Below are positions 1-49,797 of a stretch of DNA of 49,797 bases, one piece after another. The first letter of the stretch is position 1; each line of letters opens with the position of its first letter. The stretch spans positions 1 through 49,797 of IMG/VR virus record IMGVR_UViG_3300038548_000288. One strand, written 5' to 3'. The position numbers were made by a program, and so were the translations under genes. Origin of the DNA: a virus. The notes under the pieces are model-generated. The model saw nothing but the letters and a program-made list of their open reading frames with translations. It had not been told where the DNA came from and searched no databases.

Positions 1-66
1 TTCTTCATCGCGGTAAATGCTATCGCATTTATGCCGCTGTTCATCGCTTTCGTAGCGACGGCGTAA
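1..66 (+). CDS. 3' part of 30-aa membrane peptide (continues from 49644)
   Basis: The first 66 bases encode the last 21 residues and the stop codon of the small membrane peptide whose complete copy lies at 49644-49736. The gene is split only because the circular genome was cut here. The residues are mostly hydrophobic (FFIAVNAIAFMPLFIAFVATA). Confidence 0.75.
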   Translation, partial: FFIAVNAIAFMPLFIAFVATA

Positions 67-127
67 CCCCTACGGGGTGGGGCTGGTCAAACAGCCTCGC
101 CCCCATGCACGACGAAGTTCACGCAGG
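1..127. repeat. Terminal direct repeat, left copy (circular overlap)
   Basis: The first 127 bases are identical, base for base, to the last 127 (49671-49797). An exact overlap of 127, the largest k-mer commonly used by short-read assemblers, is the usual sign of a circular contig rather than a biological terminal repeat. The unique genome is therefore 49,670 bp. This fits a circularly permuted phage genome, or one whose true ends were lost in assembly. Confidence 0.95.
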
Positions 128-168
128 AGAGATCACACAAGCCACCCCGAAGGGGTGAGGGAGAGAAA
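67..168 (+). promoter_or_regulatory. Composite hairpin spacer module S1
   Basis: Between the stop at 64-66 and the ATG at 169 lie several elements. A small hairpin sits at 66-78 (ACCCC/GGGGT). A 12-bp stem with 6-nt loop GTCAAA sits at 74-103, its arms pairing throughout if two G-U pairs are allowed. The box CATGCACGACG..TTCACGCA follows, then a hairpin at 144-156 (ACCCC-GAA-GGGGT) and the Shine-Dalgarno GGGAGAG. The first hairpin and the 12-bp stem share bases 74-78, so they cannot form together. The same layout recurs in other early spacers. Confidence 0.7.
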
Positions 169-420
169 ATGGCTGGTCGAATCGAAGGCTCGCTCGCTGT
201 GCTCGTGGAAAACATCACGCACGAGGCAGAAACGAGAGCCAAAAGCGTTTCTCGCGAGGACCCAGAGCTTGCTCTGGACTACCTCGACGAAATGGCCGAT
301 CTCATGCAGCAGCAGGCGGTTTATCTACGCAGCGTGAGGCAGGAGATCAGCGTGCGAGAGAGAATCCGCCAGCAGGACAGCGAAGCTGAAGCCGAAGCGA
401 TCGACGATTTGAGGCTGTAA
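169..420 (+). CDS. Small early protein, unknown
   Basis: An 83-residue acidic, mostly helical protein with no recognised domain. It has alternating charged residues and a Gln-rich stretch (LMQQQAVYLRSVRQ) that could form a short amphipathic helix or coiled coil. The ATG at 169 follows a strong ribosome binding site (GGGAGAGAAA) that matches the other early genes, and a hairpin spacer lies on each side. It is the first gene of the rightward early array after the circular join. Its position suggests expression soon after infection; its function is unknown. Confidence 0.7.
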   Translation: MAGRIEGSLAVLVENITHEAETRAKSVSREDPELALDYLDEMADLMQQQAVYLRSVRQEISVRERIRQQDSEAEAEAIDDLRL

Positions 421-532
421 AAACAGCCCGAAGGGCTGGAGGGTGTCGAAGCCTTCCAGCCCATTGCCCCGAAGGGGCAGCAGGACAGCAGAAAAACGCA
501 AACACAGCCCTTTGGGCTGGGAGAGAATCGAA
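421..532 (+). promoter_or_regulatory. Composite hairpin spacer module S2
   Basis: The hairpin CAGCCC-GAA-GGGCTG lies at 424-438. It overlaps the 5' arm of a 12-bp stem-loop at 433-462 with loop GTCGAA, so the two are alternative structures. Further hairpins lie at 466-478 (GCCCC-GAA-GGGGC) and 505-519 (CAGCCC-TTT-GGGCTG), the latter running straight into the ribosome binding site GGGAGAGA before the ATG at 533. Confidence 0.7.
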
Positions 533-979
533 ATGAGTGGAGTTTACGAGCAAACGGTGGCCGAGCACACTTGGACGCCCACGATGGAAATCGCGGCCAT
601 GTGCGGTGATTGCCCCGAGTGCGGCGAGAGAGGCGAGCACCAACACACAGAGTTCTCCGGAGGAGACGGCGAGAGAGGCTACGTCGAGTACGCTTGCTGT
701 TCCTGTGGAACAGAGTGGACCGACAGCTACAACCTCGTGCAGCGCACGGTTTATCCACGCCTGAACGACGATCTCCTAGTGGAGATCGCGGCAGAGAAGG
801 CTCTTGAAGCTACGCTTCAAACTCCGCGTGATGATCGTGAAACGATCTGGATCGACGGTGTTGAGCAGCAGCTTTTCAGCGTGGATGAGGCGTATGAAAT
901 CTGGGCGAGCGAGCAAGAATACCTCGCGGAAAGGGACCACAAAGGGCTTGGTGGCGAAGTCGCTATCGTGATGGGTTAA
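533..979 (+). CDS. Zinc-ribbon-containing early protein
   Basis: A 148-residue protein. Near the N-terminus are two Cys pairs, CGDCPECGERGEH and, about 28 residues later, CCSCGTEW, spaced like a zinc ribbon that could bind nucleic acid or protein. The C-terminal half is acidic and helical with no recognised domain. The open frame extends upstream to 443, but the ATG at 533 is preferred: it follows GGGAGAGAATCGA, the conserved early ribosome binding site, and the upstream extension would cover the hairpin spacer. A role in host takeover or regulation is only a guess. Confidence 0.75.
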   Translation: MSGVYEQTVAEHTWTPTMEIAAMCGDCPECGERGEHQHTEFSGGDGERGYVEYACCSCGTEWTDSYNLVQRTVYPRLNDDLLVEIAAEKALEATLQTPRDDRETIWIDGVEQQLFSVDEAYEIWASEQEYLAERDHKGLGGEVAIVMG

Positions 980-1084
980 CAGCCCCAAAGGGGCTTCAGG
1001 GGCTCGCGGTGTCAAAGCCGCGAGCCTCCATGTACGACGCAGTTTCACGCAAAACAGCCCTATGGGCTGGGGAGAGAAAACGAG
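980..1084 (+). promoter_or_regulatory. Composite hairpin spacer module S3
   Basis: Right after the stop is a hairpin AGCCCC-AAA-GGGGCT at 981-995. A 12-bp stem-loop at 999-1028 follows, with loop GTCAAA and outermost wobble pairs. The 3' arm is followed directly by the box CATGTACGACG..TTTCACGCA, then the hairpin CAGCCC-TAT-GGGCTG (1055-1069) and GGGGAGAG. This is the cleanest example of the early spacer architecture. Confidence 0.72.
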
Positions 1085-1396
1085 ATGCTGACACACACCG
1101 AGGATCACCCGATCTGCGTAGCAGTTCACGAGGCAATCGTGAGATCGGAGAACTCTGCACTGTGCGCGGAGGGGAGAGAATTTGCGCTCGACTGCATCGA
1201 AGATGCACTGGCCCATTCGACGGCTGAGATGCTGGAGGCCGCACGCACGAGGCTCATCGAAGCTGCGGTCAAGGGGCTCACGGCCAGGATCGTGACGCAG
1301 GAAGAAAGCGCGTGGATGACCATGCTGGAGCAGGAATCTCGCAAGCGCGAGGAAATCAGAGCCGAAGCAGAGCTTTTCGAGGCTCACGGAATCTAG
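1085..1396 (+). CDS. Small early helical protein, unknown
   Basis: A 103-residue protein, predicted almost entirely helical, rich in Glu, Arg and Ala, with the C-terminal third (residues 75-98) strongly charged. No family is recognised. Two Cys residues early in the protein are not arranged as a metal site. The ATG at 1085 is set 9 nt after GGGGAGAG, which itself follows a hairpin. It is expressed with the other small early genes; each is separated by a hairpin module rather than overlapping its neighbour, which is unusual for this otherwise compact genome. Confidence 0.7.
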   Translation: MLTHTEDHPICVAVHEAIVRSENSALCAEGREFALDCIEDALAHSTAEMLEAARTRLIEAAVKGLTARIVTQEESAWMTMLEQESRKREEIRAEAELFEAHGI

Positions 1397-1502
1397 GCGG
1401 TCTAGGTGGCGCGGGATCAAACCCGCGCTACCTCATGCACTACGAGAGGTTGAGGCTGTTAAACCGACCCCGTTAGGGGTCACTTACGCAGGAGAAAACG
1501 CA
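1397..1502 (+). promoter_or_regulatory. Composite hairpin spacer module S4
   Basis: A 12-bp stem-loop at 1404-1433 (loop ATCAAA, one G-U pair) is followed by CATGCACTACGAGAG. A hairpin GACCCC-GTTA-GGGGTC lies at 1466-1481, then CACTTACGCAGGAGAAAACGC before the ATG at 1503. This spacer lacks the small hairpin that usually competes with the 12-bp stem. Confidence 0.7.
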
Positions 1503-1706
1503 ATGTCGAAGACTCACGAGAGTATCACTCTGGAGCGCGTGGAAGAGGCCGTGAAAGAGTCGATGTTTGGCCTTGGAAATCCCGGCTTTTGCCGTGCGTG
1601 CGGTGAAGACGCCGATGGATGCGAGCCTGACGCTCAGAACTACGAGTGCGAGGGCTGTGGGGAAAACGAAGTTTTCGGAGCCGAAGAGTTCCTGTTCTCC
1701 ATCTAG
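1503..1706 (+). CDS. Small zinc-ribbon phage protein
   Basis: A 67-residue acidic protein with four cysteines as CRACG, about 17 residues, CEGCG. The sequence between them (EDADGCEPDAQNYECEGCG) and the FGAEEFLF tail match a small zinc-ribbon protein that I recall as common in environmental and proteobacterial phages, usually annotated as hypothetical. The first 25 residues form a helix. The ribbon probably mediates protein or RNA contact. The start is fixed by the ribosome binding site AGGAGAAAA and by the hairpin module upstream. Confidence 0.78.
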   Translation: MSKTHESITLERVEEAVKESMFGLGNPGFCRACGEDADGCEPDAQNYECEGCGENEVFGAEEFLFSI

Positions 1707-1786
1707 CCCCAAAGGGGCTTCGCGGGTCAAACCGCGAGGCTCCCATTTACGAGAGAGAATCACACACTCAACCGGAGGTTGAAACG
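1705..1786 (+). promoter_or_regulatory. Composite hairpin spacer module S5
   Basis: The hairpin AGCCCC-AAA-GGGGCT (1705-1719) begins inside the stop codon. It shares GGGGCT with the 5' arm of a 12-bp stem-loop at 1714-1743 (loop GTCAAA), so the two exclude each other. CATTTACGAGAGAGAATCACACAC follows, then CAACC-GGA-GGTTG, which holds the Shine-Dalgarno GGAGG inside a small hairpin before the ATG at 1787. Confidence 0.7.
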
Positions 1787-1948
1787 ATGGAATCGAGAGG
1801 ATGCCAGGGCTGTGGATGGCCCATCGACACGACGGCGCTTCGCTTTTACTGCCGCATATGTGATCCCAAAGGGACACGAGAGGCAAACAGCCTGAAGGCT
1901 GAAAAGATGGAGGCAGAGTATCACGCCAACCGGAGGTTGGAAGGATGA
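1787..1948 (+). CDS. Small zinc-ribbon protein, 53 aa
   Basis: A 53-residue protein. Two Cys pairs (CQGCGWP and CRICDP) about 20 residues apart make a minimal zinc ribbon. The rest is a charged helix. The frame is open from 1646, but the ATG at 1787 follows GGAGGTTGAAACG and is the only start consistent with the hairpin spacer. Its stop overlaps the start of the next gene (ATGA), so translation of the lipoprotein gene is probably coupled to it. It is one of at least five tiny zinc-ribbon proteins in this genome. Confidence 0.7.
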   Translation: MESRGCQGCGWPIDTTALRFYCRICDPKGTREANSLKAEKMEAEYHANRRLEG

Positions 1949-2133
1949 AAAAACTGCTGATTTGCAGCCTGGTTTTTCTGGGCTGTGCGACTCAGCCCAT
2001 AGGGCTGGAAGAGAATTGCGACTATCGCATGAACCACAGCGGGATAGTCGAGTGCCACACCGGGTTTTACCCGGCGACGATTGACGCCATCGACCCCTCT
2101 AGGGTCGATCACAGAACCCATATCGACCTGTAA
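1945..2133 (+). CDS. Small predicted lipoprotein
   Basis: A 62-residue protein with a short signal peptide: a MKK charged start, a hydrophobic core LLICSLVF, then LGC, a plausible though not ideal lipobox with Cys14 as the lipidated residue. The mature part is only about 48 residues with two further cysteines (C25, C37), which may form a disulfide. Early phage lipoproteins of this size, such as Llp of phage T5, block the receptor and exclude superinfecting phage. That role is an inference from architecture and early position. The hairpins at 1994-2008 and 2092-2108 lie inside the coding sequence. Confidence 0.68.
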   Translation: MKKLLICSLVFLGCATQPIGLEENCDYRMNHSGIVECHTGFYPATIDAIDPSRVDHRTHIDL

Positions 2134-2151
2134 GGTCGGGAGAGAATCAAG

Positions 2152-2403
2152 ATGATTTTACCTACGGTACACAGCAACGGCACGAGCCGAGAGCAGCTTG
2201 TCCAGCTTAGGCTGGATGTGGTGGCGCCGCTCAGGGTAGCGATTTCGGCGCTGCAAATGGCGTGTCCTCATGCGAGAGACTTCTACCCGCAAGAGGACGG
2301 CGCTTACGATTTCGCTCGCGGTGTTTGGAAGGGGCGCCTGGATCAGCTTTTCAAGCTGATGGGGACGCTGGAGAAAGAGGCTCTGGAGATCCAGAACAGC
2401 TAG
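2152..2403 (+). CDS. Conserved small phage protein
   Basis: An 83-residue protein. The pattern PTVHSNGTS near the N-terminus followed by ARDFYPQEDGAY in the middle matches, from memory, a small family found in many phages of proteobacteria (PTVHLNGTS ... RDYYPQG). I know of no function for it. The rest is two helices, with a hydrophobic/charged repeat at the C-terminus. The start at 2152 follows GGGAGAGAATCAAG. The hairpin CGACCT-GTA-AGGTCG upstream (2125-2139) contains the previous gene's stop codon. Confidence 0.75.
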   Translation: MILPTVHSNGTSREQLVQLRLDVVAPLRVAISALQMACPHARDFYPQEDGAYDFARGVWKGRLDQLFKLMGTLEKEALEIQNS

Positions 2404-2505
2404 GGAGCCGAAGGCTCAGGACGCGCTCTAAGGGGCGCGGGGGGTCAAACCCTCGCTCTCCCATGTACGAGAGAGGCAAGCAGCACTCACGCAACGGAGG
2501 ACAGC
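2404..2505 (+). promoter_or_regulatory. Composite hairpin spacer module S6
   Basis: A first hairpin (GAGCC-GA-GGCTC) lies just after the stop. The hairpin GCGCTC/GGGCGC (2423-2438) overlaps a 12-bp stem-loop at 2432-2461 with loop GTCAAA and one C-T mismatch. CATGTACGAGAGAGG follows, then GCAGCACTCACGCAACGGAGG before the ATG at 2506. The GCAGCAC..ACGCAAC string is shared with the leaders of promoters P1 and P4. Confidence 0.68.
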
Positions 2506-2580
2506 ATGAAAGAGATTCTGATCCTCACCCTATGGGTGATTTTCCTTCACTTCCAGTATCGCAACAACCCGGAGGGTTGA
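2506..2580 (+). CDS. 24-aa single-pass membrane peptide
   Basis: The ATG at 2506 follows the strong ribosome binding site ACGGAGGACAGC and encodes 24 residues ending at the TGA at 2580. Residues 3-16 (EILILTLWVIFLHF) form one hydrophobic helix with a charged tail YRNNPEG. The gene is directly followed, 2 nt later, by the next ATG, whose ribosome binding site (GGAGGG) lies inside its last codons. Tiny membrane peptides are common among early phage genes and often tune host membrane enzymes. No function can be assigned here. Confidence 0.55.
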   Translation: MKEILILTLWVIFLHFQYRNNPEG

Positions 2581-2582
2581 CC

Positions 2583-2909
2583 ATGATTTTCGTATCGCAT
2601 CCCGAGACTCAGGAATGGCGAGTTTCGGTCCCCGTCGAAGACGGGGAAATCAACATCAAAATCAGCCCTGAAGGGCTGGTCATCGACTTCGTGGATATCG
2701 AAGGCGGCGAGTTCGAGCAGTCGTGGCGGACGTGGGATGATCTAGCCGAGAGCGCGAGAAGGCCGTGGTTTCCGGCAGATCCGCCTTCGGCGGCGAGGGA
2801 CGAGTACCGATTCTGGAAGGAGTTATCGGAGATCATGTACGCCTACCCACAGACCGCGCTGAACATAGCGCAGATGCGGATGGACGACACACGACCGGAC
2901 GACGCATAG
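2583..2909 (+). CDS. Early protein, unknown
   Basis: A 108-residue acidic protein. The first 45 residues alternate as short strands (IFVSHPETQEWRVSVPV, then EINIKISPEGLVIDFVDI), suggesting a small beta domain, followed by a helical tail with aromatic residues (W, Y, F). No family is recognised. The ATG at 2583 follows GGAGGGTTGACC; the longer open frame from 2262 would overlap two genes and is rejected. It is the last gene before promoter P1. Confidence 0.7.
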   Translation: MIFVSHPETQEWRVSVPVEDGEINIKISPEGLVIDFVDIEGGEFEQSWRTWDDLAESARRPWFPADPPSAARDEYRFWKELSEIMYAYPQTALNIAQMRMDDTRPDDA

Positions 2910-2937
2910 CGGCGCGGGGCTCTTGGTAAGAGCAGGG

Positions 2938-2966
2938 TTGACAGGGCAAAATTGCCGCTGTAGATT
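2938..2966 (+). promoter_or_regulatory. Promoter P1, sigma70-like, shared phage consensus
   Basis: TTGACA (2938-2943), a 17-nt spacer and TAGATT (2961-2966). The spacer contains GGCAA-AA-TTGCC, a perfect 5-bp inverted repeat that could be an operator. A hairpin GCTCTT-GGT-AAGAGC (2919-2933) lies just upstream. The leader shares TTGGAGGCAGGA and GCAGCAC with P4. It drives the gene at 3007. Confidence 0.82.
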
Positions 2967-3006
2967 GGAGGCAGGAAAGCAGCACTAACGCAAACCGGAG
3001 GTTTTA

Positions 3007-3399
3007 ATGGACAGCAAAGCTGTAGCAGAATTGGAGTCTGGTTTGGCCCACTACTACGGGTCGGAGACTTTCACCGGAATGGGTCCGCTTTTTCCTGGGA
3101 TCGTGATGTCCGAAGGCGCGTTGTTTCTCGCAGAGAAAGCCGGGGCTTACTGGCTTTTCGATGCGATAGCCTCGCATATCGTGACGAACAAGTCCCTTCG
3201 GGAGATGACCGGATACATGATGTTCTGGAACCTGAAGGTCGAAAACGGCGAAGCCGTTCTCACGGTGCGCCGTGATTCTGGCGAGCCTGTGCTGGTCACG
3301 CAGGAGATCGGTTACACCGATTTTCCGCTGGACGAGATCGACATTTGGGCAGGGCAGAACGGAGAGGGTTACACCCTCTATCTGCCGTCAGAGCACTAG
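3007..3399 (+). CDS. DUF6876-like protein
   Basis: A 130-residue single-domain protein. It matches my memory of the DUF6876 family, found in phages and mobile elements: an aromatic start (ALAHYYGSE type), then LAEKAGAYWLFDAIASH, then FWNLKVENGEAVLTV, and near the end TQEIGYTDFPLDEI followed by a final strand (YTLYL). The family has no established function that I know of. The length fits the family. It is the first gene after promoter P1, with the ribosome binding site CCGGAGGTTTTA, so it should be among the more strongly expressed early proteins. Confidence 0.8.
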   Translation: MDSKAVAELESGLAHYYGSETFTGMGPLFPGIVMSEGALFLAEKAGAYWLFDAIASHIVTNKSLREMTGYMMFWNLKVENGEAVLTVRRDSGEPVLVTQEIGYTDFPLDEIDIWAGQNGEGYTLYLPSEH

Positions 3400-3400
3400 A

Positions 3401-3488
3401 CACTGGTGAGGGACGCCCCGAAAGGGGCGTTAAACCGCAAGTCAGGTCCCAAGCCCTGACGCGATGGAATCACACAGGAGGGAGAGAA
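3401..3488 (+). promoter_or_regulatory. Hairpin spacer module S8 (short subtype)
   Basis: ACGCCCC-GAAA-GGGGCGT is followed by TTAAACCGCAA and then a 6-bp stem GTCAGG/CCTGAC with loop TCCCAAGC, then GGAATCACACAGGAGGGAGAG before the ATG at 3489. Spacers at 4223 and 4789 share this second layout: hairpin, TAAACCGCAA, short stem with CCAAGC loop, CACACA, ribosome binding site. Confidence 0.65.
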
Positions 3489-3800
3489 ATGGCGAAAAGC
3501 AGACCCCAGCGATGGGCCGAAGCGGCTGCAAATCTCAGACAGGCGCTAGACGCCATCGACACGCAGAACGTCGAGCACTATGGCGACGAGTTGGCCGCTA
3601 TCCGCGAGGAATACGAACAGTGGCACGCCGACCTTCCAGAGAATCTGGAAAACAGCCCAATGGCTGAAAAGCTGGAGGCCGTAGTCGATCTCGAACTTGA
3701 GTACATCGGCAGCAATATCACGGAAGCGATAGACGAGGCTCGTAGCCTCTGCGAAGACGCCGAAGGCGTCGAACTTCCTCTTGGATTCGGGAGAGACTAG
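3489..3800 (+). CDS. Conserved phage helical protein
   Basis: A 103-residue acidic helical protein. Residues about 40-65 (REEYEQWHADLPENLENSPMAEKLE) and the C-terminal ELPLGFGRD match a family I recall from many phages (EYxxWxDNLPENLxxSxxAEKLE ... LPLGFGRD), function unknown. The ATG at 3489 follows GGAGGGAGAGAA; the longer frame from 3345 overlaps the previous gene and is rejected. A GGCTGCAAA motif lies within it at 3524-3532, encoding Ala-Ala-Asn. Confidence 0.78.
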   Translation: MAKSRPQRWAEAAANLRQALDAIDTQNVEHYGDELAAIREEYEQWHADLPENLENSPMAEKLEAVVDLELEYIGSNITEAIDEARSLCEDAEGVELPLGFGRD

Positions 3801-3806
3801 GAGCCA

Positions 3807-4013
3807 ATGAGAATCGAAATTTCAGCACCCGTGGACGGCAACGGCAATAGCCGTTTTATGTCGGTCACGACCGAGGAATTGGCGAGCGCCATGCGTAGCC
3901 TACCCATGCTCGAAGTCACCGCGATGGAGTTCCGGAGACTTGCGACCGAGATGGGGAAGCCGCTGAACGACGAGGACGCCACTATCGTGGCTTCGGGAGA
4001 GGACTACGCATGA
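3807..4013 (+). CDS. Small early protein, unknown
   Basis: A 68-residue protein with an N-terminal beta strand (RIEISAPVDG), a second strand (RFMSV) and a helical C-terminal half (LASAMRSLPMLEVTAMEFRRLATEMG). No family is recognised. It starts 6 nt after the previous stop, with AGGAGCC as ribosome binding site, and its own stop overlaps the next start. It therefore belongs to a small translationally coupled trio (3489, 3807, 4010) between two hairpin spacers. Confidence 0.65.
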   Translation: MRIEISAPVDGNGNSRFMSVTTEELASAMRSLPMLEVTAMEFRRLATEMGKPLNDEDATIVASGEDYA

Positions 4014-4222
4014 TGAACTACACAGTAGTTTTCGCCTACTCGTCAACGGTGGACGGTGAGGGTCAGAAGGCCCGGCTACGGGTTGAGCAGGTTGAGGCCC
4101 CGAGTCACGCCGCTGCGATAGCGATGGTGGCGAGCAGGTGCCCAGCTACGCCACAGGACGCGGTTTCTATGTGCGCTGTGGGGATCGACAACATCGAGAT
4201 TTTGGTTGGTGAGCCCGAGTAG
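4010..4222 (+). CDS. Small early protein, unknown
   Basis: A 70-residue protein with a beta-alpha-beta layout: strand NYTVVFAYSS, strand KARLRVEQVEA, helix HAAAIAMVASRCP, strand NIEILVGE. The pattern resembles small phage proteins of the EVxAxSxxxAI type, but I cannot name a family. Two consecutive ATG codons (4010, 4013) overlap the previous stop; either may be used. Confidence 0.62.
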   Translation: MMNYTVVFAYSSTVDGEGQKARLRVEQVEAPSHAAAIAMVASRCPATPQDAVSMCAVGIDNIEILVGEPE

Positions 4223-4299
4223 GTGAGGGCAGCCCCTTTGGGGCTGTAAACCGCAAGCTAGGTCCCAAGCCCTAGCATCACACACCGAAGGTGGAGGAT
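4223..4299 (+). promoter_or_regulatory. Hairpin spacer module S9 (short subtype)
   Basis: CAGCCCC-TTT-GGGGCTG (4231-4247) is followed by TAAACCGCAA, then a 6-bp stem GCTAGG/CCTAGC with loop TCCCAAGC and ATCACACACCGAAGGTGGAGG. Loop and linker are almost identical to S8 and S10, while the stems differ by compensating changes (GTCAGG, GCTAGG, GCTGGG). That is evidence that the RNA structure is what is kept. Confidence 0.68.
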
Positions 4300-4788
4300 A
4301 TGAAACAAGCCGAAATGAGGGTGGGCCGTGAGTATGCACACCGGAGAGGCAAGGTGTACTACGCCACCGCCGTGAGGGTCAAGGTTCTCGAAACGAAGCT
4401 CCACCGGGACGATCGCTACGGCTACCCGATGGACAAGGCGGACGGCGTGCGTGTGGCCTTCCTGAACGCCGATGGCGGAGTGCGGCAAGAGCGGGTTGTT
4501 CCGAGCAGCCATATCGTGAGTACGTGGGCGGCAGAGAAAGCCCGCATAGCGGCCAAGGCTCAGGCGAACGAGGAACAGCAAGCCGAGAGGGAGAAGGCAC
4601 AGGAGAGGCTCAAGGCGGCAAAAGAGGCCGTTGGCCTAACCGTGGACTTCGGCAGCAGGATGGGAGTCGAGCAGCTTGAGCACTTCGGCGCGTTGTTGTC
4701 GGCGGCGCGGAAGGTGGTCAACGGCAAGCTGGAATTGGAAAAGGTCGAAGACCTACGGGAAGCGATTTACACGTTCGATTTCAGGTGA
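4300..4788 (+). CDS. Early protein with coiled-coil segment, unknown
   Basis: A 162-residue protein. Residues 1-70 look like a small beta barrel (GREYAHRRGKVYYATAVRV, VRVAFLNADGGV, RVVPSSHI), as in proteins that bind nucleic acid or act as SH3-like adapters. A charged helix of about 40 residues follows (AAEKARIAAKAQANEEQQ..), probably a coiled coil, then a short C-terminal helical domain. The ATG at 4300 is chosen although its GGAGG is only 2 nt away; an in-frame GTG at 4291 is the alternative. No family is recognised. Confidence 0.65.
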   Translation: MKQAEMRVGREYAHRRGKVYYATAVRVKVLETKLHRDDRYGYPMDKADGVRVAFLNADGGVRQERVVPSSHIVSTWAAEKARIAAKAQANEEQQAEREKAQERLKAAKEAVGLTVDFGSRMGVEQLEHFGALLSAARKVVNGKLELEKVEDLREAIYTFDFR

Positions 4789-4858
4789 GGACAGCCCTTC
4801 GGGGCTGTAAACCGCAAGCTGGGTTCCAAGCCCCAGCACACTCACACAGGAGAGAAAA
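4789..4858 (+). promoter_or_regulatory. Hairpin spacer module S10 (short subtype)
   Basis: CAGCCC-TTC-GGGGCTG is followed by TAAACCGCAA, the stem GCTGGG/CCCAGC with loop TTCCAAGC, and CACACAGGAGAGAAAA before the ATG at 4859. The TTCCAAGC loop is the most T-loop-like member of the set. Confidence 0.67.
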
Positions 4859-5146
4859 ATGGCGGACGTGACACAGGTGGCACAGGTCACCGAGGCACAG
4901 GCGAAGCGAAACGCCGAGATCAGAAAGGCGAATCGTCCGAAGGACGAGGCGTGGATCAAGTTTCAGGCTGCAACGAGAGTTCAGCACGAAGACTGGATCG
5001 AAGCGACAAACGCCGAAGGCGCTACGAAGCAGCAGGTTCAAGCCGCGTGGGGCGTGTATCACGAGGGCACAGGTGAGGCGTGGGACACGTACCTCACAGC
5101 CATCGGCGCCTACTCGTCACCCCCGAAGACGGGGAGGCGTGCGTAA
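4859..5146 (+). CDS. Small early helical protein, unknown
   Basis: A 95-residue protein, all helical, rich in Ala, Glu, Gln and Trp, with regularly spaced Trp residues (AWIKFQAATRVQHEDWIEA, AAWGVYHEGTGEAWDTY). The pattern of repeated 'AWxxY' segments resembles short helical hairpins, but no family is recognised. The ribosome binding site is GGAGAGAAAA. It ends just before the hairpin TTCCC-TTC-GGGAA (5148-5160) and promoter P2, so it probably closes the P1 transcription unit. Confidence 0.65.
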   Translation: MADVTQVAQVTEAQAKRNAEIRKANRPKDEAWIKFQAATRVQHEDWIEATNAEGATKQQVQAAWGVYHEGTGEAWDTYLTAIGAYSSPPKTGRRA

Positions 5147-5183
5147 ATTCCCTTCGGGAAAAATGTGGATTTGCACGTCGGAC

Positions 5184-5212
5184 TTGACAGGACAGAATTA
5201 CCGTTGTAACTT
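5184..5212 (+). promoter_or_regulatory. Promoter P2, sigma70-like, shared phage consensus
   Basis: TTGACA (5184-5189), a 17-nt spacer and TAACTT (5207-5212). The spacer GGACAGAATTACCG aligns with P1. The hairpin TTCCC-TTC-GGGAA at 5148-5160 upstream may end incoming transcripts, although it lacks a good T tract. The leader carries CAGCAGCAAAAATCGCAAAC, a relative of the GCAGCAC..ACGCAAAC box. It drives the AAA+ ATPase operon. Confidence 0.82.
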
Positions 5213-5256
5213 GGATCAGCAGCAAAAATCGCAAACCCGAAACAGGAGCAACCGAA

Positions 5257-7146
5257 ATGAACGTACCCTATGCAGCTTGGCCGAAGTACGGACCTTCCGT
5301 GCTGGGTCAAGCCGAGTACGATCGCCAGATCAGCGCATGGCAAGCGTACCAGGACAGTAACCAGCATCGGCGCCCAGCGGGCGAGGAAATGGAGTCCGGC
5401 GAAGCCGAGAGTATGGACAGCTTCACCTACACCAACAAGTACGTGAAGGCCGAGCAGTCTCGAAAGAGAATCTTTCGGGAGCAGAACATCAAAGCCACGT
5501 CGCCAGAGGACGCCATGAAGCAGGGGCGTGACGCGATGAAGGCCGAGCTTGGGCCGATGTACGACGACGACAACGTGAACCAGTACCGCCCCGTTCCGGG
5601 GTCCGAGAAGATCGCCAAGCCGCGTGGTAAGGCGTTCGAGGAAGGCGAGGACGAGCGCCGTAACGACGAGGGCACCAACGGCCACGAGAACGGCCAGGGT
5701 GACGGCCAGGGTGACGGTGACGGCGAAGGTGACGGTGACGGCGAGGGAGAGAATGACGGCGAAGCCGAGAACGACGATCAGCAGGACGATCAGCAGGACG
5801 GTGACGGCGAAGGCGCCGAAGGCGACGGTGACGGTGAGAGTCAGGACGAAGACGATACGCCGAAGATGCCTACGTGCCCCAAGTGCCAGCAGCCCAAGGG
5901 CTCGACCGAAGGTTGCTGCGCCCCGCCCGAGTCTGGCGACCTTCCGAAGCCGGAAGACGGACCCGAAACGGTGCCGAATTTGCAGCTACTTCGGACGGAC
6001 GGTGAAGCTCCCTACCAGGGAGAAGAGGCTGACCTGAAAATCCAGGTTGCCGCCCACCGCGAGATCGTGACCGTGCTGTCGAAGTCGCTGGCGGACGTGG
6101 ACGATTGGACTCGTGGCGTTGTGGACTACCACATTCACCAGCTTTCAACGGAGTTGTACGGCCAAATGACGGCCAGCCACCTGAGCCTCAAGGCTCTGAT
6201 CGCGAAGGGTGGCGGTGAAGGTGGCGTGAGCCGTAAGGCTCTGCAGGGTTTGGAACAGAAAATGAAGTCCATGATCGCCGCCCATGAGGCGAAGATCAAC
6301 GTGGCCGATATCGCAGAGCAGGTGGGCGAGATGCTGGCCGCTCCGAAGCGCATCGAGATCGTCTACGACGATAAGGTCATCGAGATCAAGGGGACGCCGC
6401 ACAAGGCTTTCGACGAGTGCCTTACAGGGCTCAAGCGTGGGCTGAACCTGTTCCTCGTGGGTCCCGCTGGAAGCGGAAAAGGCTTCCTGGCCCAGCACTT
6501 GGCCGAAGCGTTCGACCTTCGGTTCGGATTCCAGTCGTGCTCCGAGGGCATGAGCGAGGGCATGGTGCTTGGGAGAGGCGTGCCGCTGGCCGAAGAGTTC
6601 CTGTATCTGCAGAGCAGCTTTGTGGACTTCTACGAGAACGGTGGAGTGTTCCTGCTGGACGAGATTGACGCTGCAAATCCCAACGTGCTGCTGATAATCA
6701 ACGAGTGCTTGAGCAGCCCGCACCTAGCGATTCCGAACCGCGTGAAGAACCCGTATGCGGTTCGCCACAAGGATTTCCATGTGATCGTCGCCGCCAATAC
6801 GTGGGGCACAGGTCCGAACATGGAGTACGTGGGACGCAACAGGTTGGACGCAGCTTTCCTCAACAGGTTCATCGGATCTACGATCGAACTTGGCTACGAT
6901 GCGAGGATCGAAGGCGAGATCGCGAAGGCGTACCTGGGTAAAGAGGCCGCGATGCCGGTGCTCAAGAGATTCTGGGGCGTTCGTAAGAAGCTCGACGAAA
7001 TGAACATCCGTAGGATCTGGAGCACCAGAGGGCTGGAGAAAATGTGCATAGCCCTGGCCGATGGGGATGACATGGCGAAGGTGCTCGACGCCCACACGAG
7101 AGGCTGGACCGTGGACGAGAAGAACAAGGCGGGGGTGGCAGCATGA
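5257..7146 (+). CDS. MoxR-like AAA+ ATPase with acidic linker
   Basis: A 629-residue protein. The ATPase core is of the MoxR/AAA_5 type: Walker A GPAGSGKG at residues 402-409, Walker B FLLDEID with D468-E469, then a sensor-like AANTWG and the DAAFLNRF arginine-finger region. Residues about 144-201 are a low-complexity acidic linker of Gly/Asp/Glu, followed by a cysteine cluster (CPKCQ..GCC) that may bind zinc. MoxR ATPases usually remodel or load cofactors together with a VWA protein. The next gene, overlapping by ATGA, looks like such a partner. It is the first gene after promoter P2. The substrate is unknown. Confidence 0.88.
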   Translation: MNVPYAAWPKYGPSVLGQAEYDRQISAWQAYQDSNQHRRPAGEEMESGEAESMDSFTYTNKYVKAEQSRKRIFREQNIKATSPEDAMKQGRDAMKAELGPMYDDDNVNQYRPVPGSEKIAKPRGKAFEEGEDERRNDEGTNGHENGQGDGQGDGDGEGDGDGEGENDGEAENDDQQDDQQDGDGEGAEGDGDGESQDEDDTPKMPTCPKCQQPKGSTEGCCAPPESGDLPKPEDGPETVPNLQLLRTDGEAPYQGEEADLKIQVAAHREIVTVLSKSLADVDDWTRGVVDYHIHQLSTELYGQMTASHLSLKALIAKGGGEGGVSRKALQGLEQKMKSMIAAHEAKINVADIAEQVGEMLAAPKRIEIVYDDKVIEIKGTPHKAFDECLTGLKRGLNLFLVGPAGSGKGFLAQHLAEAFDLRFGFQSCSEGMSEGMVLGRGVPLAEEFLYLQSSFVDFYENGGVFLLDEIDAANPNVLLIINECLSSPHLAIPNRVKNPYAVRHKDFHVIVAANTWGTGPNMEYVGRNRLDAAFLNRFIGSTIELGYDARIEGEIAKAYLGKEAAMPVLKRFWGVRKKLDEMNIRRIWSTRGLEKMCIALADGDDMAKVLDAHTRGWTVDEKNKAGVAA

Positions 7147-8066
7147 ACATCGTGACACACAGGACAGAGATGGCCCACGGTGCGGAGAAACGCACCTGGG
7201 TCGTGGGCATGGACGTTCACGAGATCCCCGATCTCATGGACATAGAGACGCCCGATTTCAACGAGGCGGCGAGAGCCCAGCTTGACGGACATTGGGCTGG
7301 CACCGGGGACAATATGCCGCCGAAGTCGTTCTACCTGGGCAAAATCAAGAGCCTGGAGGCGCTCGAAAAGATACACCTCAAGGGCTGGGCGAAGGGTGCC
7401 GAGAAGGCAATGGCGCTGGCCGATGGGCTACTGGACAACGTGGCCCAGCCGAAGGGTATCCGGCGCAAGATCAAGTGGGGCGACGACGGCGACGAGTTCG
7501 ACAAAGAGCGCCTGTTGGACGGGCACCTAGAGACTGCGTGGCGGACGAGCACGAGGCAGTACGCCGTGGCTACTCCGATCATCAACATAGCCGTAGGCTG
7601 GGGTGGAAATTGCGACCTCAATCACGACCAGCTTTTCTGGTCCGGTGCTTCGGCGCTGGCCCTTTGCAGGGTGTTGGAGAACGCTGGCTACCAGACCAGC
7701 CTCACGGCCATCTGCGCGAACGACATACACAGCGAGGATATGCACATTGCCCTGTGCTGCAGAGTGAAACAGGCTGGGGAATATCTGAGGCCGGATGCGG
7801 TCGCGAGTATTATCTGCCTGGGCGCCACGTTCCGGACGTACCTGTTCGCTGCCTACGTGGCGAGCCCGTTCCGGATACCGGCTGGGCTGGGGCATAACTG
7901 CAGGGTGGACAGAGTGATTCCAGCGGCGATCGAATCGGGAGTGCTGGAGGCCCCGCAGGTGATCCTGCCTGACGCATACACTGAGGTGGACGCGAGGAAC
8001 TCAGTGGAAAATGCGCTGACCGAACTTGCGGCTGCAAATCTCGCGGCGCTACCGGAGATCAGGTGA
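7143..8066 (+). CDS. VWA-like partner of the MoxR ATPase (DUF7192-like)
   Basis: A 307-residue protein. The segment GWAKGAEKA ... KIKWGDDGDEFDKERLLDG near residues 75-130, and later IINIAVGWGGNCDLNHDQLFWSGASALALCRVLENAGY at about 140-180, follow the plan of a phage family I associate with DUF7192, which looks like a degenerate von Willebrand A fold. The strand that normally carries the DxSxS metal site reads GGNCDLNHD, so a classic MIDAS is not obvious. MoxR ATPases act with VWA proteins, so this is the likely partner, with translation coupled by ATGA. Function is inferred from context. Confidence 0.62.
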   Translation: MNIVTHRTEMAHGAEKRTWVVGMDVHEIPDLMDIETPDFNEAARAQLDGHWAGTGDNMPPKSFYLGKIKSLEALEKIHLKGWAKGAEKAMALADGLLDNVAQPKGIRRKIKWGDDGDEFDKERLLDGHLETAWRTSTRQYAVATPIINIAVGWGGNCDLNHDQLFWSGASALALCRVLENAGYQTSLTAICANDIHSEDMHIALCCRVKQAGEYLRPDAVASIICLGATFRTYLFAAYVASPFRIPAGLGHNCRVDRVIPAAIESGVLEAPQVILPDAYTEVDARNSVENALTELAAANLAALPEIR

Positions 8067-49042: not shown

Positions 49043-49071
49043 TTGACAGGACCAGCTTGCCGGTTTAGGTT
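49043..49071 (+). promoter_or_regulatory. Promoter P4, sigma70-like, shared phage consensus
   Basis: TTGACA (49043-49048), a 17-nt spacer and TAGGTT (49066-49071). The leader TTGGAGGCAGGACCAGCAGCAC is almost the same as that of P1 (TTGGAGGCAGGAAAGCAGCAC), so both make transcripts with nearly identical 5' ends. It drives the early genes through the circular join. Confidence 0.82.
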
Positions 49072-49121
49072 GGAGGCAGGACCAGCAGCACCACGCAAAC
49101 CAGAACACGAGGAAAACGAAA

Positions 49122-49532
49122 ATGAAAAACTCACACGCTCTCACGCACGACACTTCGACGATCATCGGCTTCGACGAGATCCCGCCCGCAGGATATAACT
49201 ACACGCTCCCGCGACTAGTTGCCGCACCCGAGGCAGAGTGCTGGGAACGAACGATTTTGGGGATGGACGATTGCCCGCCCGCTGACTACGACGCGGAGGT
49301 GCGCTACTTAGACCCGCAGGAGAGAATCGGGGCGGACGAAAACGCAGTTTTCGCGGTGCTTGACGAAACCAGCGAAGCTGGCGTCGAGAGTACGCAAGTC
49401 TTGATCGCTCGCTTGGAGGCGCTAAGTATCCCCGAGCACGAGGCTTTCAAGCTCGTTTCGATCTGGCGTCAAGGCCATGCGGACCCGTGGATTAGGGCGC
49501 ACGATGACCAGCTTGAGATGTGGTGCAAATAA
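49122..49532 (+). CDS. First early gene, unknown
   Basis: A 136-residue acidic protein. The first 60 residues (STIIGFDEIPPAGYNYTLPRLV, then MDDCPPADYDAEVRYLDP) have repeated short motifs PPAGY and PPADY; the rest is helical (GVESTQVLIARLEALSIPEHE) with a tryptophan-rich end. No family is recognised. It is the first gene after promoter P4, so it should be among the earliest and most abundant phage proteins. The start at 49122 follows ACGAGGAAAACGAAA. Confidence 0.68.
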   Translation: MKNSHALTHDTSTIIGFDEIPPAGYNYTLPRLVAAPEAECWERTILGMDDCPPADYDAEVRYLDPQERIGADENAVFAVLDETSEAGVESTQVLIARLEALSIPEHEAFKLVSIWRQGHADPWIRAHDDQLEMWCK

Positions 49533-49643
49533 CGCGGGATTAGTCACCTCCGCGCGGTGTCAAAGCCGCGTGAGAGGCTTGCCCAAATGGGCAGCACGAC
49601 GCAGTTAACACGCAAACAGCCCGAAGGGCTGGAAGGTTGGAGA
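49533..49643 (+). promoter_or_regulatory. Composite hairpin spacer module S12
   Basis: A stem with core CGCGGT / GCCGCG and loop GTCAAA (49553-49570), then an inserted hairpin TGCCC-AAAT-GGGCA, the box GCACGACGCAGTTAACACGCAAA, and CAGCCC-GAA-GGGCTG before GGAGA. The same elements as in S1-S6 with an extra hairpin inserted between stem and box. Confidence 0.65.
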
Positions 49644-49736
49644 ATGACGAACACCGCACGCAGGATCGAGTTCTTCATCGCGGTAAATGCTATCGCATTT
49701 ATGCCGCTGTTCATCGCTTTCGTAGCGACGGCGTAA
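49644..49736 (+). CDS. 30-aa membrane peptide crossing the circular join
   Basis: ATG at 49644 after GGTTGGAGA; 30 residues with one membrane helix (IEFFIAVNAIAFMPLFIAFV) behind a basic start (MTNTARR). Its 3' part is repeated at positions 1-66. It is followed by spacer S1. The composition and placement in the early array suit a small membrane-acting early peptide; function unknown. Confidence 0.6.
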   Translation: MTNTARRIEFFIAVNAIAFMPLFIAFVATA

Positions 49737-49797
49737 CCCCTACGGGGTGGGGCTGGTCAAACAGCCTCGCCCCCATGCACGACGAAGTTCACGCAGG
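49671..49797. repeat. Terminal direct repeat, right copy
   Basis: Identical to positions 1-127. It contains the end of the 30-residue membrane peptide gene and most of spacer S1. It closes the genome into a circle. Confidence 0.95.

Follow-up and report, generated by a model that had tools for sequence, protein, structure and literature searches.

Candidate tRNA mimics in the intercistronic spacers of a phage early operon and their possible cleavage by host RNase P

Introduction

In phage T7, intercistronic ribonuclease (RNase) III sites, one hairpin per junction, divide the early polycistronic messenger RNA (mRNA). Cleavage by RNase P is described for single RNAs other than transfer RNA (tRNA), namely, the phage T4 gene 32 mRNA, phage C4 RNA, the his operon mRNA and transfer-messenger RNA (tmRNA; PMC11143913), while mascRNA and menRNA are also matured by this enzyme (PMC11693755). 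In the present study, a virus record of 49,797 nucleotides (IMG/VR record IMGVR_UViG_3300038548_000288), taken at its full length and referred to as the window, was considered. The window corresponds to a whole circular phage record, with a 127-bp end repeat. Seven spacers between its early genes each contain a stem-loop element, designated S0 to S6. We infer, with a probability of roughly 0.6, that these elements are intercistronic tRNA mimics that host RNase P would cut, thereby affecting expression of the early genes.

Results

In the window, the early genes lie on the plus strand and the late genes (terminase, portal and major head protein) on the minus strand. According to the gene calls used here, S0 to S6 occupy all seven spacers of at least 50 nt between promoter-like sites at 49044 and 2938, with one sense-strand element per spacer and a stop codon upstream of each. 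The first-pass annotation of this sequence had recognized six such early spacers; because the record is circular, S0 (49547-49577) is counted as the seventh. Each element is built of a 12-position stem, a 6-nt loop and a tail such as CAUGYACGA. The loop is mostly GUCAAA, with GUCGAA in S2 and AUCAAA in S4. The tails of S0 and S2 include an additional hairpin, as does that of element R5a from the relative L005.

49547..49600, plus strand: S0; stem-loop 49547-49577, 12-bp stem with one bulged A; loop GUCAAA 49559-49564; additional hairpin 49580-49593; tail GCACGAC
74..113, plus strand: S1; stem 74-85/92-103; loop GUCAAA 86-91; tail CAUGCACGAC
433..486, plus strand: S2; stem 433-444/451-462; loop GUCGAA; additional hairpin 465-479; tail GCAGGAC
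999..1038, plus strand: S3; stem 999-1010/1017-1028; loop GUCAAA; tail CAUGUACGAC
1404..1445, plus strand: S4; stem 1404-1415/1422-1433; loop AUCAAA; tail CAUGCACUACGA
1714..1752, plus strand: S5; stem 1714-1725/1732-1743; loop GUCAAA; tail CAUUUACGA
2432..2470, plus strand: S6; stem 2432-2443/2450-2461, 11/12 pairs; loop GUCAAA; tail CAUGUACGA

S1 is duplicated at 49744-49783, within the end repeat, and S0 and S6 are orthologs of R5a and R5b of L005, respectively. The 12-bp stems are far more numerous than chance would give. Six plus-strand hairpins with at least 11/12 pairs and an NUCRA loop were observed, as compared to five in total in 20 shuffles, while the same criterion applied to 127 other loop classes gave a mean of 0.02 and a maximum of 1. 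No known RNA family in Rfam was matched by S0 to S6. Two further features were considered and dropped, namely, a pseudoknot pairing the GUC of the loop with the GAC of the tail, spotted by eye, which fails in S4, S5, S6, R5b and R5d, and a leader peptide starting from the AUG after the stem, for which the reading frames, again judged by eye, are inconsistent among the spacers.

Relatives were located by terminase and ATPase searches (8 and 4 loci, respectively). A covariance model (R1), built from window and L005 elements only, was first used to search 11 other virus records, where convincing matches were limited to G002 (L005; E 2.3e-8 to 6.8e-7), with G006, G007, G001 and G010 appearing only at E 0.33-2.97. 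The G006 and G007 elements surfaced later, in a 12-bp scan and then with R1 at E 0.005 in a search of 126,515 bases; in that search, L085 was matched at E 1.5e-4 and the second L085 copy weakly (E 0.13). No elements were found in the distant relatives G010 and G011, and contigs G003 and G009 end inside the early region, such that absence there says little. L005, the terminase of which is 85% identical to that of the window, carries four elements, including one in the spacer equivalent to that of S0 and one in the spacer equivalent to that of S6. G006 and G007 present one element each, with loop UUCGACU. L085, for which only a distant DnaB-like protein (37%) was detected as matching the window, contains one UUCGAUU element and one GUCAAA element after two adjoining genes.

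The L005 element at 1958-1928 (minus strand) reads GGGGCGC GGGGG UUCGACU CCCUC GCGCUCC A, and is made up of a tRNA acceptor (7 bp), a T-stem (5 bp) and a canonical T-loop. The canonical T-loop, UUCGACU or UUCGAUU, is seen in R5c, G006, G007 and L085. Because such loops are found in the equivalent spacers of relatives, the element looks like an acceptor plus T-arm minihelix (7+5 bp). The U, C, R and A of UUCRA are kept in all 15 elements of the window and relatives, among which R5c, G006, G007 and L085a alone possess the full UUCRANN T-loop. For three T-loop copies, the best Rfam family was mascRNA-menRNA (RF01684), with scores of 25.1, 19.8 and 20.6 bits that fall below the gathering threshold (42.5).

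Across the 15 elements, 177 of 180 cells (12 stem positions each) are paired. These cells include 28 G-U combinations and a single A-C; therefore, selection acts on the transcribed strand. In alignment A5, from which S0 and L085b were omitted on account of bulges, all 12 stem pairs of the remaining 13 elements show two-sided changes, 98.1% of the cells are paired, and the covariation value is 0.877, as opposed to 0.217 ± 0.041 upon shuffling and at most 0.23 upon sliding.

Pattern searches of the collection were also conducted. Two patterns returned 0 loci and 7 loci, with one of the latter being true (the known L005 contig). Others returned 29 loci, including five with 12/12 pairs (L065, L066, L067, L082 and L085), and 23 loci, including three with 12/12 pairs (L065-L067 again), while two more gave 27 loci with none above 8/12 pairs and 2 genome loci, both at 7/12. 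In addition, tRNA-like spacer elements with an acceptor/T-arm insert, followed by (C)AUGCA, were observed in L077 (~4220-4140, minus strand), L076 (minus strand) and L083 (3741-3790); L073/L083 were grouped with L076 and L077 as tRNA-like with an insert, and the other L083 spacers, read by eye, contain plain hairpins without a T-loop. An unannotated region of L139 (Tortoise microvirus 74) at ~370-480 contains two T-arm-like hairpins within a long stem.

When the G006 and L085 elements served as BLAST queries, matches were obtained in unannotated spacers of Gordonia phages and haloviruses, as well as in some annotated tRNA genes. In the leftward operons of Gordonia phages VanLee and ObLaDi, elements are present in 15/17 and 7/7 spacers of at least 50 nt, respectively (22/24 together). 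None of these 22 anticodon-less tRNA mimics appears in the annotation of the two stretches (L144 and L145). Pairing was noted in 262 of 264 cells; with the acceptor/T split picked for each element so as to give maximum pairing, 21 of the 22 elements showed 12/12 pairs. The T-stem paired at 1.00, as compared to 0.64 when swapped. A UUCRANN T-loop is found in 22/22 elements by search definition, while seven control loop motifs gave no element for six motifs and one for the seventh. The connector contains GG, as in a D-loop, in 19/22 elements and the tail reads RCG in 21/22. The stop codon-to-element gap is 2-37 nt in 20/22 cases and 88 and 303 nt in the other two.

In haloviruses HF2, HHTV-2, SH1 and HRTV-27 and in seven HF2-like viruses, an acceptor, a connector and a T-arm follow one another in one place each, with five or six acceptor pairs. 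These 11 regions were chosen by similarity and were considered together with HRPV-1, where the T-arm alone is clear; 47 records were listed with similar DNA. For HF2-like viruses, tRNA-like sequences left without explanation are mentioned along with a hammerhead ribozyme (PMC7230728), and processing of long primary transcripts is suggested (PMC8707807). In the passages considered from the latter paper, long halovirus transcripts are seen as short RNAs on Northern blots and a mechanism involving RNase P is not invoked; the term RNase P appears in the passages considered from neither publication.

At the predicted cut site, N-1 is never G (0/37) and N+1 is G in 34/37 cases, when the 15 window and relative elements and the 22 Gordonia elements are taken together. 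In the Gordonia elements, N-1 is A in 14, C in six, U in two and G in none, while N+1 is G in 22/22. RNase P prefers an N-1 other than G and, usually, a G at N+1. The pattern would thus appear RNase P-like in both groups, lending support to the proposed assignment. Moreover, RNase P fits the stack of T-stem-loop and acceptor, with the D-loop being dispensable (PMC4919913).

Examination of the region downstream of S6 revealed a second operon, with Twister-P5 ribozymes in all three spacers of at least 50 nt. The promoters and ribozymes of the two operons are as follows.

49044..49072, plus strand: promoter-like sequence preceding the S operon, similar to the 2938 site; read by eye, no tool score
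2938..2966, plus strand: Sigma-70-like promoter separating the S and Twister operons; 10/12 matches, consensus only
3405..3458, plus strand: Twister-P5 ribozyme T1, within spacer 3400-3488; 60.4 bits (gathering 37.6)
4222..4274, plus strand: Twister-P5 ribozyme T2; 52.7 bits (gathering 37.6)
4784..4835, plus strand: Twister-P5 ribozyme T3; 46.5 bits (gathering 37.6)

T1-T3 thus lie in long spacers that follow one another within a single operon, and the S elements and Twister-P5 ribozymes occupy equivalent slots of adjoining operons. No Twister-P5 ribozymes were found in the 11 related virus records.

Discussion

At the level of sequence, the structure of the S elements, their covariation, strand bias and position, and the change to canonical T-loops seen among relatives can be considered established. 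In the mechanism proposed here, each element would comprise a coaxial acceptor (7 bp) and T-stem (5 bp) with a T-loop-like loop, found on the transcribed strand shortly after the upstream stop codon. Host RNase P, which gauges the distance from the T-loop to the cleavage site, would most likely cut just 5' of the stem. Such cleavage would break up the polycistronic early message into shorter mRNAs, with each downstream piece starting with a stable 12-bp hairpin. The self-cleaving Twister-P5 ribozymes, found in equivalent slots of the next operon, would act to the same end.

Several points weigh against this proposal. Cleavage of the S elements by RNase P is itself something that we infer. An unpaired 3' RCCA is a major determinant for bacterial RNase P, and is absent here, with positions 74-76 corresponding to AUG, UUG or AUU, and with an ACG-type tail in the Gordonia phages. 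U54 of the T-loop is missing from 11/15 elements, 10/15 have 6-nt loops, and the loop is unusual in all window copies; for S5, a hexaloop element, even an E limit of 10 yielded nothing tRNA-like in Rfam. RNase P also does not account for the conserved CAUGYA-like tail and its optional hairpin. Finally, there are few close relatives with known early regions, and only one besides the window is multi-copy.

Of the other explanations, that which survives best assumes the same tRNA mimic to be read mainly by a different enzyme that recognizes tRNA, for example RNase Z, with a cut following position 73, or by another T-arm binder. CCA, an RNase Z antideterminant (PMC4919913), is absent at positions 74-76. 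The sequence just past position 73, beginning past the first base after the stem, is moreover conserved (AUG in nine elements, UUG in four and AUU in two, with U75 in 15/15). The Gordonia tail differs, however, so that the 3' side is not common to both groups, whereas on the 5' side both groups display the N-1/N+1 pattern expected for RNase P. RNase Z or a similar binder as the main reader is deemed unlikely. It is also rather improbable that the loop and 12-bp helix are bound by a protein, of phage or host origin, involved in antitermination or mRNA protection. While the conserved loop, the fixed helix length and the repetition within one operon would all suit such binding, neither the canonical T-loop in equivalent spacers nor the equivalence to the Twister slots is predicted by it.

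The first-pass annotation had proposed an attenuator or riboswitch in which a small leader hairpin right after the upstream stop codon competes with the 12-bp stem for shared bases. The hairpins concerned are as follows.

66..78, plus strand: small hairpin of S1, 5 bp; 74-78 common with the 12-bp stem
424..438, plus strand: small hairpin of S2, 6 bp; 433-438 common with the 12-bp stem
1705..1719, plus strand: small hairpin of S5, 6 bp; 1714-1719 common with the 12-bp stem
2422..2439, plus strand: small hairpin of S6, 7 bp; from 2432 on common with the 12-bp stem; the sole one predicted to beat the stem

Sequence and folds bear out the shared pairing in S1, S2, S5 and S6, and the small hairpin and the 12-bp stem indeed exclude one another. 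Placement right after the stop codon does not apply to S6, where the hairpin begins 18 nt past the TAG at 2401-2403, with another hairpin (2405-2417) lying between. Switching, as assessed by energies, sampling and permutation, is rejected for most spacers, although it may apply to S6. With the small hairpin forced, the energy relative to the 12-bp stem changed by +7.2 kcal/mol in S1, +4.8 in S2, +11.0 in S3, +2.2 in S5 and -3.2 in S6, such that the 12-bp stem is overwhelmingly preferred in most spacers and the order is reversed in S6. Upon sampling, the leader hairpin exceeded 0.05 in 3/15 elements (S6, 0.99; R5d, 0.11; R5a, 0.051), while in R5b, the S6 ortholog, the 12-bp stem was favored at 0.995. 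The acceptor stem probability was at least 0.86 in 13/15 elements, the exceptions being S2 (0.12), where the stem is lost to a downstream palindrome and not to the leader hairpin, and S6 (0.01), where it is lost to the leader hairpin. S2 is flanked by near-identical palindromes (424-438 and 505-519), the mutual pairing of which over ~14 bp would break the acceptor stem.

In favor of a switch, leaders paired better with the 5' arm of the element they precede than with the arms of other elements (permutation p 0.004-0.07; 14 elements and five leader lengths, with G7, a near copy of G6, omitted), and S6 and R5b have one three-way change in common, as read by eye. Against this stand the prevalence of the 12-bp stem in S0, S1, S3, S4 and S5, and the G006, G007 and L085 copies, which are without a competing leader hairpin. 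Likewise, no terminators were detected in any S spacer, with the sole plus-strand terminator-like site in positions 1-8000 (2525-2539) being intragenic; even S6, with its strongly competing folds with the leader, is without such a site. Rfam riboswitch families gave no match to the S elements. A switch is, as such, very unlikely, although the leader may play a modulating role, above all in S6.

Another point against a switch is that short palindromes in general, the small hairpins among them, are in excess throughout the region. In the early 5.8 kb, coding and non-coding sequence included, 66 perfect mini-hairpins were counted, as compared to 11.4 ± 3.0 in shuffles; corresponding values are 44 vs. 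23 in the middle region and 84 vs. 72 in the late region. Mini-hairpins with one G-U and with one A-C are equally frequent (11 each), and hence no RNA-strand selection is visible. The roughly six-fold excess (stem of at least 5 bp, loop of 3-4 nt) is seen in the early region only, at 49100-49670 and 1-5256, and is weaker in the L005 early region (17 vs. 6.8). Template-switch mutation is possibly the source of these palindromes. Mini-hairpins also lie before or around the Shine-Dalgarno sequences of early genes (143-157, 505-519, 1055-1069, 1466-1481, 1768-1782, 2565-2579 and 49617-49631), in some cases with GGAGG in or beside the loop.

An undescribed class of self-cleaving ribozyme would fit the spacer position, which is the same as that of T1-T3, and the conserved single-stranded tail with its optional hairpin. 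Such a class is nonetheless highly improbable, given the few invariant bases outside the T-loop, the existence of canonical T-loop versions and a stem length that an RNase P substrate accounts for. That the elements are remnants of tRNA or tmRNA genes, such as attachment sites, is barely credible despite their likeness to a tRNA 3' half, given that the seven copies, each in its own spacer, have diverged through compensatory changes, and given that ARAGORN detected no tRNA gene in the window or in L004-L015, where no cloverleaf with an anticodon arm was found.

Beyond the window, even odds can be given to the broader proposal that minimal tRNA mimics have arisen repeatedly in the intercistronic spacers of viruses of Bacteria and Archaea, about one per spacer in some operons, such that the essential RNase P of the host would yield single-gene messages. 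These mimics would be interchangeable with self-cleaving ribozymes in the same slots, as in the window, where one operon has seven mimics and the next has three Twister ribozymes. If true, this would represent a general, host-dependent route to monocistronic messages, when only a few RNase P-cut mRNAs are known so far. It could also help account for the short halovirus RNAs on Northern blots, and suggests that tRNA mimics without an anticodon have been missed in the annotation of viral spacers. VanLee, ObLaDi and halovirus HF2 offer cultured, testable cases. In the literature, no description was found of tRNA mimics occupying almost all spacers of a phage operon, with most subscription journals and preprints lying outside the full-text search.

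In comparison to known systems, the S elements resemble the RNase P-cut non-tRNA RNAs in placing a tRNA-like fold, which would recruit RNase P, inside a longer transcript. Here, however, a minimal mimic without an anticodon arm or CCA recurs in almost all spacers of one operon. The mascRNA and menRNA of MALAT1 and MEN beta (RF01684) are the top-scoring Rfam family for three T-loop copies, yet these derive from eukaryotic long non-coding RNAs, the scores lie below gathering, and the window copies are without a D-like connector. The type-P5 twister ribozyme (RF02684) fills equivalent slots in the next operon but self-cleaves, whereas the S elements gave no match to a twister model at E up to 1. 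Theta ribozymes found beside phage tRNAs similarly tie phage ribozymes to tRNAs, albeit reportedly with tRNA-based recoding (PMC10879173), whereas here tRNA mimics lie between protein genes. In their proposed working, the S elements, at one hairpin per junction, recall the intercistronic sites of T7 introduced above; unlike those sites, for which RNase III needs longer duplexes, they present 12 bp and a T-loop.

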